DNA of 64,000 bases. Origin: an uncultured Bacteroidota bacterium. GTDB taxonomy: Bacteria > Bacteroidota > Bacteroidia > Flavobacteriales > Flavobacteriaceae. This document shows, in pieces, positions 16,693 through 20,650 of the stretch. Location of the stretch: NCBI GenBank assembly GCA_902582405.1, contig CACHSA010000002.1, positions 1 to 64,000 on the forward strand, given 5' to 3'. The position numbers and the translations under genes were made by a program. Position 1 is the stretch's first letter; every line of letters begins with the position of its first letter. The notes under the pieces were generated by a model. That model made no database searches. It saw only the letters and a program-made list of their open reading frames with translations, and was not told the origin of the DNA.

Positions 16693-17442
16693 TTAGGATT
16701 TAAGTGTTGAAGCCATATATTCGCTATTCATTCTAGCTATATTTTTTAAAGAAATTCCCTTTGGACACTCAACTTCACATGCACCAGTGTTTGTACAATT
16801 TCCAAACCCCTCGTCATCCATTTGCTTAACCATGTTTAAAACTCTTTGTTTTGACTCTACCTTACCTTGCGGTAGTAGTGCATATTGAGAAACTTTAGCA
16901 GATACAAATAACATTGCGGAAGCGTTTTTACAACTAGCGACACAAGCACCACAGCCTATGCAGGTAGCGGCATCAAATGATTTGTCTGCATCATTTTTTT
17001 CGATAGGAATAGAATTTGCATCTTGGGTATTACCAGAAGTATTAACACTAACAAAGCCTCCTGCTTGTTGAATCCTATCAAATGCTGAACGGTCAACTAC
17101 CAGGTCTTTTATTACTGGAAAAGCATTAGCCCGAAATGGTTCAACAACAATGGTATCACCATCTTTGAACTTTCGCATATGCAACTGGCATGTTGTTACA
17201 AGTCGATCAGGCCCATGAGCCTGACCATTTATAAACATGGAACACATACCACATATACCTTCTCTACAGTCATGATCAAAGGCAACTGGATCTTCTTTGC
17301 CTTCGGATATAATTTTACTGTTTAGAACATCTATCATTTCTAGAAATGACATATCAGGAGAAACGTTTGACATCTTATATGTTTTCATTTCCCCCTTAGA
17401 GTTACTATTTCGTTGTCGCCAAATTTTTAATGTTAAATTCAT
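16693..17442 (-). CDS. sdhB: Succinate dehydrogenase / fumarate reductase iron-sulfur subunit
   Basis: Carries electrons from the SdhA flavin to the membrane quinone site. The [2Fe-2S] cluster cysteines are in CREGICGMC and the later VTTCQLH, and the [4Fe-4S] and [3Fe-4S] ligands in [14 protein letters not shown] and [15 protein letters not shown]. At 249 residues it has the length usual for the Bacteroidota-type (SdhCAB) enzyme. It starts 1 base after the sdhA stop and is followed at 18 bases by the amidase gene. Confidence 0.96.
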
Positions 17443-17443
17443 T

Positions 17444-19702
17444 TTATTTATATGATCTTGTTTTTACCTCAATTTCTTCGTATTCTAATTTTTCTTTGTG
17501 AAGAACAGATTTTCTGGGTTCCTTATTAAATTCCCATGCTGAAACATATTTATAATCTTTATCGTTTCGCAACGCCTCACCTTCTTTTGTTTGGTGTTCC
17601 TCCCTAAAATGACCTCCGCACGACTCTTCTCTTTCAAGTGCATCTTTGGCAAATAATTCACCAAGTTCAAGAAAGTCAGATACTCTAGTAGCTTTTGACA
17701 ATTCTTCATTGAATTCATTCAATTTCCCAGGTATTTTTACATTCTTGTGGAAATCTTCTCTAAGATTTTTTATTTCACTTATTGCTTCCTTAAGTTCATT
17801 TTTATTTCGAGACATCCCGCATTTATTCCACATGATTTTGCCAAGTTTTTTGTGATAAAAGTCGACCGGATTTTTGCCTTTTTTATTTATTAAATTTTCT
17901 AAAGATTCTCTAACGTATTTTTCCGCCTTCTCAAATTCAGGTCTATCAACAGAAATTGGACCAGTACGAATATCATCAGATAAATAATCTCCTATTGTAT
18001 AAGGTAGAACGAAATATCCATCTGCCAGTCCCTGCATTAATGCTGAAGCGCCAAGACGATTGGCTCCATGGTCAGAAAAATTGGCTTCACCTATTGCATA
18101 GCATCCAGGTATTGTTGTCATTAAATTATAATCAACCCAAACACCACCCATTGTATAATGTACTGCAGGATAAATCATCATTGGGGTTTCATATGGATTT
18201 TGGTCTACAATCTTTTCATACATCTGAAACAAATTCCCGTATTTTGCTTTAACAACCTGTTTTCCTAGATTCATCACTAATGAAGTATCGTTTTCATCAA
18301 GTCCCAAAACTAATGCTCTCTCTTTTCCATATCTTTCAATCGAAGAACTAAAATCTAAATAAACTGCTTCTCCTGTCTTGTTTACACCATATCCCGCGTC
18401 ACAACGTTCTTTAGCTGCTCTTGAAGCAACGTCTCTTGGGACTAGATTTCCAAATGCCGGATATCTTCTTTCTAGATAATAATCCCGGTCCTTTTCCGCG
18501 ATTTGAGTTGGACTTAATTTACCCTCTCTAATCATCTTAACATCATGTAACTTTTTTGGCACCCATATCCGTCCATCGTTTCTTAATGATTCGGACATCA
18601 GAGTTAATTTAGATTGGTGATCTCCAGAAACTGGAATACAGGTGGGATGAATTTGAGTAAAGCAAGGATTTGCAAAAAGAGCACCTCTTTTATGTATTTT
18701 CCATGATGCAGAAACATTACTACCCATCGCGTTAGTAGACAAGTAAAAAACATTTCCATAACCACCAGATGCTATTACAACAGCATGCGAAGAATGTCTG
18801 TTAATTTCGCCTGTTACCAAATTTCTTGTTATAATTCCTCTTGCTTTGCCATCAATTACAACGATATCCATCATTTCATGTCTATTGTACATTTTAATTT
18901 TACCTCTACCGATTTGTCTATTCATAGCCGAATAGGCACCTAATAAAAGTTGTTGACCGGTTTGACCTTTGGCATAAAACGTCCTAGATACAAGTACTCC
19001 TCCAAAAGATCTATTATCCAAAAGACCCCCATAATCCCTAGCAAATGGGACTCCTTGAGCAACACATTGGTCAATTATATTTCCCGAAACCTCTGCTAGT
19101 CTGTAAACATTAGCCTCCCTAGATCTATAGTCTCCTCCTTTGATAGTATCATAAAAAAGTCTATGAATTGAATCACCGTCTCCTTGATAATTTTTAGCTG
19201 CATTTATACCACCCTGAGCAGCTATAGAGTGTGCTCTTCTAGGGGAATCTTGAAAACAAAAAGTTTTGACATTGTACCCAAGTTCTGCTAAAGTAGCAGA
19301 AGCAGAAGCACCAGCTAAACCAGTGCCAACAACAATCACATCGATTTGACGTTTGTTCGCAGGACTTACCAAATTTATTTTACTTTTATGATTAATCCAC
19401 TTTTCAGAAAGATTTCCCTTTGGTATTTTTGGATCAATTATTAGACCATTATTATTAGTTTTTTTATAGAGATTTTTTTCCCACTCTTTAGCTAATAATT
19501 TTGCTTTTTTAATGTTTAATTCATTTTGATTTTTTTCATCTTTTGTCTTAGGGTCAGTAATTAAATGAAAAGGTAAAGTTTTAATGAGCCTTTTTGCTTT
19601 ACGTTTACCATTTGCGATTTCATAACCAGAAAAGAAATTTAATCTAATTGATGAGGTGCCATTTGAATTTGGTCTATATCTTATTTTAACTGTTTTTTTC
19701 AA
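17444..19702 (-). CDS. sdhA: Succinate dehydrogenase flavoprotein subunit with an extra N-terminal integrase arm-like domain
   Basis: Oxidises succinate to fumarate through covalently bound FAD. Residues about 88-752 are a standard Bacteroidota SdhA: dinucleotide fold [14 protein letters not shown] at 121-134, flavin-linking His158 in [15 protein letters not shown], and [15 protein letters not shown]. Residues 1-87 are extra. They read as a short beta-rich segment with [14 protein letters not shown], then [19 protein letters not shown] and a basic helix, a pattern resembling the arm-type DNA-binding domain of Bacteroidota tyrosine integrases. The only start available is TTG at 19702. Where SdhA normally begins there is no ATG; codon 88 is ATA. 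The extension is therefore apparently part of the protein. Paired repeats lie 14 bases upstream. Confidence 0.9.
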
Positions 19703-19716
19703 TTTTTATTTATATT

Positions 19717-19743
19717 AAGGTACACAAATTAATCAGGGTGCAC
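19717..19743 (-). repeat. Paired direct repeat upstream of sdhA, 18-bp period
   Basis: Read on the minus strand, GTGCACCCT (19735-19743) is followed 18 bp later by GTGTACCTT (19717-19725). Both are preceded by TTT. The pair ends 14 bases before the TTG start of sdhA. The same pair with the same spacing occurs upstream of sdhC at 20494-20520. A regulatory site is likely, but what binds it is unknown. Confidence 0.6.
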
Positions 19744-19801
19744 AAAAAAAGTGAACCGATGAAGTTTTTTATTTCTATATAAAATTTGTGGGTTAAATTA
19801 C

Positions 19802-20464
19802 TCATATTGAATTTGTAAAATGAAATAATGCTATAAAAACAAAACCTAACGGAACTCCAATTGCAAAAAGTTTTGTCAAACCTCTAATTGAAAGAATGTA
19901 TTTATTGTTTACTCCAACAGATTGAAATGAGGAATTAAAGCCATGTAAAAGGTGTAACCCAAGAAAAAGAAAAGAAAATGAATAAATACTAACCCTTATT
20001 GGATTTTCAAATTTGTGAGTCATTTCATGGTAATATCTATCTGGATCTAAGGGGTTGAACTGAACATATTTGTAATTCATTTCTGGTACCCAAAAATCAT
20101 AGAAGTGTAGAAACATAAAAAGCAAAACAACTATTCCCGACAAAATCATATTCCTAGACATCCAAGAAGAATTTGAACTACCTTTAACATAATAGTATTT
20201 AACGGAGCGTGATTTACGATTTTGGTAATCTAATACCATCCCCATTACAAAATGGAAAACTACACCAAAAATTAAGATAGGTTGTAAAATAAATTGTACT
20301 ATTGGATTATTCCCCATGAAATGGGAAATACTATTAAAAACTTTTTCGGAAAATACAGAGGTTAGATTAATAGTGAAATGCTGAAACAGAAAAAGTATCA
20401 AAAATAGACCAGATATAGCCATCGAATACTTTTTAACTAAAGAGGAATTAAATAGTTTAAACAT
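19802..20464 (-). CDS. sdhC: Succinate dehydrogenase cytochrome b subunit
   Basis: A 220-residue membrane anchor of the diheme, Bacteroidota/epsilon-type complex II. It shows five hydrophobic segments, with likely heme ligand histidines in LFQHFTINL, VVFHFVMGM, LFMFLHFYDFW and FLGLHLLHGF. The start MFKLFNSSLVKKYSMAISG is typical of the family. It is the first gene of sdhCAB; a 99-base gap containing one repeat pair separates it from sdhA. A second repeat pair lies 29 bases upstream of its start. Confidence 0.93.
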   Translation of the reverse strand: MFKLFNSSLVKKYSMAISGLFLILFLFQHFTINLTSVFSEKVFNSISHFMGNNPIVQFILQPILIFGVVFHFVMGMVLDYQNRKSRSVKYYYVKGSSNSSWMSRNMILSGIVVLLFMFLHFYDFWVPEMNYKYVQFNPLDPDRYYHEMTHKFENPIRVSIYSFSFLFLGLHLLHGFNSSFQSVGVNNKYILSIRGLTKLFAIGVPLGFVFIALFHFTNSI

Positions 20465-20493: not shown

Positions 20494-20520
20494 AAGGTAC
20501 ACAATTTTTTTAAGGTACAC
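20494..20520 (-). repeat. Paired direct repeat upstream of sdhC, 18-bp period
   Basis: On the minus strand GTGTACCTT occurs twice, at 20512-20520 and 20494-20502, exactly 18 bp apart. Both copies are followed by A-rich sequence, giving a unit close to TTDGTGTACCTTAnATAA. The pair lies between the presumed sdhC promoter region and its ATG at 20464. It matches the pair ahead of sdhA in sequence and period. Confidence 0.6.
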
Positions 20521-20650
20521 TAATTATTAGACGTCAAGAAAACTTACAATCACTTTTGTTCAGGTTTTATTTAAAAATAAAAGCTAAATAATAAACAAAA
20601 AGATATTTAATTAAATTTATAATTTAAAAGAAAATATTTAACCCTATCAT

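Follow-up and report, generated by a model that had tools for sequence, protein, structure and literature searches.

Few respiratory enzymes are as conserved as succinate dehydrogenase, and we know of no flavoprotein subunit (SdhA) with a DNA-binding domain of its own; nor was an earlier report of such a case found in searches of an open-access library. The sdhA gene in the 64,000-nucleotide stretch of marine bacterial DNA analysed here (the window) is longer than the SdhA sequence accounts for, which raises the question of whether its N-terminal part is such a domain and, if so, which sequences it might recognise.

The N-terminal extension of SdhA

The gene is located at 17444..19702 on the minus strand, between sdhC for the cytochrome b subunit (19802..20464, minus strand), which is the first gene of the operon, and sdhB for the iron-sulfur subunit (16693..17442, minus strand; named from its translation). 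It starts with TTG and encodes a protein of 752 aa in which a putative arm-type DNA-binding domain is fused to the SdhA flavoprotein. The FAD_binding_2 and Succ_DH_flav_C domains and the sdhCAB operon identify the protein as SdhA; both domains are contained in its body, residues 94-752, which together with the stop codon covers 17444..19423 (minus strand). Ahead of the body are a domain of b-b-b-a order, comprising residues 1-79 (19466..19702, minus strand; pLDDT mostly >85), and a variable, flexible linker of residues 80-93 (19424..19465, minus strand; pLDDT <50).

An earlier note, made from the sequence alone, had placed residues 1-87 of the 752-codon gene outside SdhA, and matches to relatives outside the genus indeed start at residues 74-92 of the window protein. 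The span given there for the extension, 19440-19702, is corrected to 19442-19702, of which only residues 1-79 form the structured part. As the note had observed, the extension is basic, with 22 K/R against 7 D/E. Its claim that the native start is lost, with the TTG at 19702 as the sole start, also holds: no in-frame ATG, GTG or TTG is found between the TTG at codon 1 and a TTG at codon 111, and since the latter is already within conserved SdhA sequence, there is no ordinary alternative start near codon 88.

With TTG as a rarer start codon and a fragmentary MAG (1.36 Mb, about 70% complete) as the source of the window, it could be suspected that translation begins near codon 88 or that the fusion is chimeric. 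We find this hardly credible. Besides the missing starts near codon 88, the extension is present in all six same-genus genomes with sdhA (G000, G001, G002, G004, G005 and G006), which settles the conservation check that had been proposed; one further genome of the genus had no sdhA match. The genus fusions are 94-98% identical across residues 1-752, the TTG start is kept in every copy, and versions that start with ATG occur in other genera. The genomes compared were mostly MAGs or single-cell genomes, and a GTDB-wide scan recovered fusion records from several independent projects, including isolates with AG- names, which we take to be single-cell genomes. As the extension is common to the genomes of the genus, the AG- records included, assembly and binning can both be ruled out as its source, and a sequencing error as the cause of the missing ATG is excluded by the genus-wide conservation. 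The N-terminal extension on SdhA is confirmed as real.

The dN/dS values of the extension within the genus were 0.05-0.17 versus 0.025-0.05 for the SdhA body, and comparisons across genera yielded values of 0.11-0.35 where dS could be computed, the synonymous sites being saturated or nearly so. In an alignment of the extensions, the residues of the sheet were nearly invariant and the linker was variable. Purifying selection on residues 1-79 is strong. The low dN/dS values argue against an artefactual reading frame and, together with the invariant sheet, indicate that the extension is not a decaying leftover.

Relationship to recombinase arm domains

The resemblance of the extension to the arm-type DNA-binding domain of tyrosine integrases, as proposed in the earlier note, was supported by sequence comparisons. 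Searching relatives with the whole fusion yielded weak matches of residues 5-68 to the N-termini of ORFs of 380-391 aa (in G032 and G027), which encode tyrosine recombinases matching PF17293, PF13102 and PF00589. An hhalign profile-profile comparison of 12 extensions of the window's type (type A, see below) with the arm domains of two of these recombinases gave a probability of 96.8 and an E-value of 2.9e-10. The AlphaFold (AF2) model of the extension had a pLDDT of 82.7, with strands at residues 5-11, 16-30 and 33-48 and a helix at 54-79; residues 5-79 were modelled confidently, and the beta part followed by a helix that had been read from the letters was recovered as three strands and one helix. 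A full-length model had a mean pLDDT of 46 with a poor core, owing to a shallow alignment, and was left unused.

No PF17293 match was obtained in the Pfam search for the window's extension or other type A sequences. Searches of Pfam and PHROGs with the type A extension gave no useful match, and a PDB sequence search with it yielded hits at chance level only. Structural likeness to arm domains, another of the proposed checks, was found in the order of strands and helix and did not extend to Foldseek, which returned nothing significant for the model against PDB and BFVD. With neither a Pfam nor a significant Foldseek match, the arm link rests on sequence, which supports the type A extension as a divergent arm-type domain that is a relative, not a member, of the Pfam family.

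The likeness to the arm of Bacteroidota tyrosine recombinases (PF17293, Arm-DNA-bind_5) comprises sequence homology, the order of strands and helix, and paired short repeats as presumed targets. Unlike these enzymes, the fusion has no core-binding (SAM-like) or catalytic domain, and SdhA makes up all that follows the extension. It does not count as a recombinase, and recombination is not expected. No second protein with the domain was found in the window genome, although one could be missing at about 70% completeness.

Recurrent fusions and their upstream repeats

We surveyed 400 genomes of the family and 398 of the order, first for the length of the ORF and then for its sequence. At least four of the families in the order had SdhA fused to a DNA-binding domain, and four types were distinguished: the arm types A, B and C, separated by visual comparison of their sequences and by their differing repeats, and an HTH_17 type, which is of a fold unrelated to the arm types. 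Type A comprises 13 genomes (the window's genus and L060-L066), type B was found in G010, G420, G085, G096, G179, G361, G468, G612, G622 and G584, type C in G217, and the HTH_17 type in G054, G493, G458, G479 (two copies), G450, G472, G433 and G441. The PF17293 test that had been suggested for the window's extension, negative for type A, was positive for types B and C, which exceeded the cut-off in L044, L046 and L112, with L045 just below it; the match was weak in L152 and in a free-standing type B domain of G165, and there was none in L153. Among the members tested, HTH_17 was matched at E-values of 5e-15 to 2e-12. The two copies in G479 are different HTH_17::SdhA genes (L146, L150) in one bin with 5% contamination, and may represent two organisms.

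Scanning some 85,000 genomes with type A recovered 12 loci, all of them SdhA fusions and none an integrase. The relatives of type B outside SdhA were full-length recombinases of 520-567 aa (or fragments thereof) and one free-standing gene. Viral contigs scanned with types A and B yielded no relatives, so no donor element was identified. In an SdhA tree inferred from 330 columns, fused and unfused proteins were well-supported sisters in four places (G319/G110, AG-325-E04/G279, G217/G387 and G054/G041).

The type A genomes contain direct repeats of the 10-bp sequence TGTGTACCTT, usually paired 17-19 bp apart. In the window, one pair of putative operator sites precedes sdhA, with TGTGTACCTT at 19717..19726 (minus strand), 14 bases ahead of the TTG start, and TGTGCACCCT at 19735..19744 (minus strand), 18 bp from its partner. 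The other precedes sdhC, with TGTGTACCTT at 20494..20503 and AGTGTACCTT at 20512..20521 (both minus strand), again 18 bp from each other. Under a Markov null of the two gaps, four or more sites were obtained in 0 of 20000 runs. The motif TTGTGYACCYT occurs four times in the 1.36 Mb of the window genome, three times at sdh; the fourth occurrence is within a coding ORF and was discarded as a site. All 13 type A loci contain three to four sites: the window's genus and G385 have a pair in front of sdhC and a second one, whole or partial, in front of sdhA, and in the other type A genomes all three or four sites are located before sdhA and none before sdhC. Among 23 genomes searched, zero-mismatch type A pairs were found only at the sdh operons of type A genomes.

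The gap between sdhC and sdhA is mostly about 3 bp, or an overlap, in unfused loci and usually 39-146 bp in fused ones, and each fusion type has its own short repeat before sdhA and in some genomes also before sdhC. In the type B genomes the sites resemble TGTGTTACAA and are often spaced 11-12 bp; they precede sdhA and, in some of these genomes, sdhC too. The type C pair, GGGGCACAAAATGGGGTACAA, is the only perfect match in its genome (G217); the only other match there is a second pair with two mismatches about 340 bp before the sdhC ORF (G217:C17:2421-2441). The HTH_17 genomes have RGACAAA repeats about 10 bp apart, some of which cross the start codon. The type A and B motifs were absent from each other's sdh regions in the loci compared and from the loci of 18 unfused relatives. 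In the f11 fusions L154 and L155 there is no intergenic room, and no clear putative operator was resolved in the gap.

Since the domain is strongly basic and SdhA acts within a large membrane complex, the extension might instead serve, for example, to tether the enzyme to the nucleoid or the membrane, or to assemble or stabilise the complex, with a different regulator binding the repeats. That repeat type tracks domain type over all four types makes this quite unlikely, as a separate regulator would not explain such a correspondence. The search of the window genome for a second carrier of the domain also speaks against it, although a protein of another fold could bind.

Two type B genomes contain sites away from a fusion gene. 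In G085, the only other pair lettered like the sdhA pair lies before a second Sdh-type flavoprotein gene, which is divergent from a flavodoxin-like gene; this gene and the perfect type B pair upstream of it make up locus L123 (G085:C25, 1172-2971 and 1176-1193). One further, different pair in that genome fits the type B pattern and precedes a thrS-like gene. In G165, the type B arm domain is free-standing (L114; G165:C13, 3-1791): the gene is intact, encodes 131 aa with an SdhA-like C-terminus (NPLEKKW) and has four sites upstream. After it come a remnant of sdhC, an unrelated membrane protein with no Pfam match and an unrelated FAD_binding_2 flavoprotein. The native SdhA is gone from this one MAG, and the congener G353 gave no match. 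The native Sdh operon has apparently been displaced by a foreign, Sdh-like one with the DNA-binding part kept, so that in this MAG the arm domain has outlived its enzyme.

These loci bear on an account in which mobile elements attach at the sdhC-sdhA junction and, after decay, the 5' part of an int or xis gene remains ahead of sdhA with its arm or Xis sites, the extension now providing a start codon and promoter with no DNA-binding role. It would fit that every domain type is of a mobile-element kind (integrase arm or excisionase-like HTH), that fused and unfused sister lineages alternate, and that the gap of unfused relatives is so short. The repeats are also like those of related recombinases, several of which, with type B-like arms, have upstream pairs spaced 12 bp, such as TGTGTTCCAAATTGTGTTCTAA (L115) and GGGGTACTATATGGGGTACTAA (L116), while the type A-like recombinase L034 has TTTACACCTTATTTACACCTC upstream. 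As a full account it is nevertheless unlikely: selection is purifying at the amino-acid level across large divergence, the sites before sdhC lie outside any scar, none of the fused loci read showed an element or an integrase remnant in the sdhC-sdhA gap, the arm gene of G165 was retained after SdhA was lost, and a site precedes an unrelated flavoprotein gene. Integration is still a plausible source of the parts. An intN::sdhA gene left by an attachment site inside int, which is possible as the origin of the fusion, was dropped as a full explanation on the strength of the sdhC-front sites and the free-standing arm gene.

The full-length recombinases with type B-like arms adjoin tRNA genes. In four genomes such a recombinase (L118, L119, L121 and L122) lies between tRNA-Phe and a coaX-like (type III pantothenate kinase) gene, a position that points either to a hot spot of integration common to these genomes or to inheritance of the recombinase.

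Candidate autoregulation of sdhCAB

We estimate at roughly 70% the probability that the SdhA of the window is a bifunctional enzyme and regulator, whose arm domain acts on the paired TGTGTACCTT repeats and feeds back on sdhCAB. This reading draws on the fusion itself, the homology, the purifying selection, the near-unique sites and the match of site to domain type across lineages, as well as on the paired sites before sdhC, away from the fusion point. It is further favoured by the G085 pair before the second Sdh-type gene, the survival of the G165 arm domain alone with four sites, the similar paired repeats upstream of full-length recombinases with related arms, the lack of another carrier of the domain in the incomplete window genome and the precedent described below.

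That precedent is trifunctional proline utilization A (PutA), a flavoenzyme with an N-terminal DNA-binding domain that is an autogenous repressor (PMC5293562). Here too, on computational grounds, an enzyme tied to the membrane respiratory chain has its own N-terminal DNA-binding domain and predicted sites before its own operon, and PutA acts on its own and a partner gene (PMC5293562). In contrast, PutA has a ribbon-helix-helix domain and oxidises proline, whereas the fusion is the SdhA of complex II with a recombinase arm or HTH_17, and repression is suggested by analogy. Neither PRODH/P5CDH nor RHH domains are present in the fusion protein; the fused SdhA at most works like PutA, and is not a PutA.

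SdhA probably controls its own production. The recombinase-derived arm domain would bind the paired 10-bp direct repeats before sdhC and sdhA, and the amount or state of SdhA would set the transcription of the sdhCAB operon. If the analogy to PutA extends this far, binding would repress the operon and the signal would be free, unassembled SdhA: molecules assembled with SdhB and SdhC at the membrane would be kept off the DNA, and an excess of SdhA would shut the operon. A redox-dependent (flavin) switch, as in PutA, may be the signal instead.

With somewhat less assurance, we favour the broader view that the flavoprotein subunit of complex II repeatedly became a transcription factor of its own operon in genome-reduced marine Flavobacteriales, by capturing domains from mobile elements, namely three kinds of integrase arm and one HTH like that of excisionases, along with the repeats they target. 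It is probable that proteins of mobile elements supplied these domains, and that they did so more than once. As proposed here, the fused SdhA would resemble trigger enzymes, which are metabolic enzymes that also control gene expression, with the difference from trigger enzymes in general that the same subunit repeatedly acquired dedicated DNA-binding domains of different types. If true, such repeated gains, each with its own operator, would amount to a series of natural experiments in the conversion of an enzyme to a regulator. They would also demonstrate feedback through a single gene in organisms whose genomes are small, and show that parts of mobile-element proteins can be put to a new use.

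For the HTH_17 (MerR-like, excisionase-like) fusions, the closest parallel is the HTH_17-like BldC, which binds direct repeats head to tail (PMC5859096), and this mode of binding fits the tandem arrays spaced about 10 bp that adjoin these fusions. BldC differs in being a free protein of 68 residues (PMC5859096), and here HTH_17 is fused to SdhA. In one HTH_17 locus, L148 (G472:C3), the site-bearing stretch of the sdhC-sdhA gap is present twice in tandem, as near-identical units of about 125 bp. In another, L144, the repeats (GACAAAGATG) continue through the start codon, so that the first residues of the protein, MDKDGQ, are encoded by putative operator sequence.
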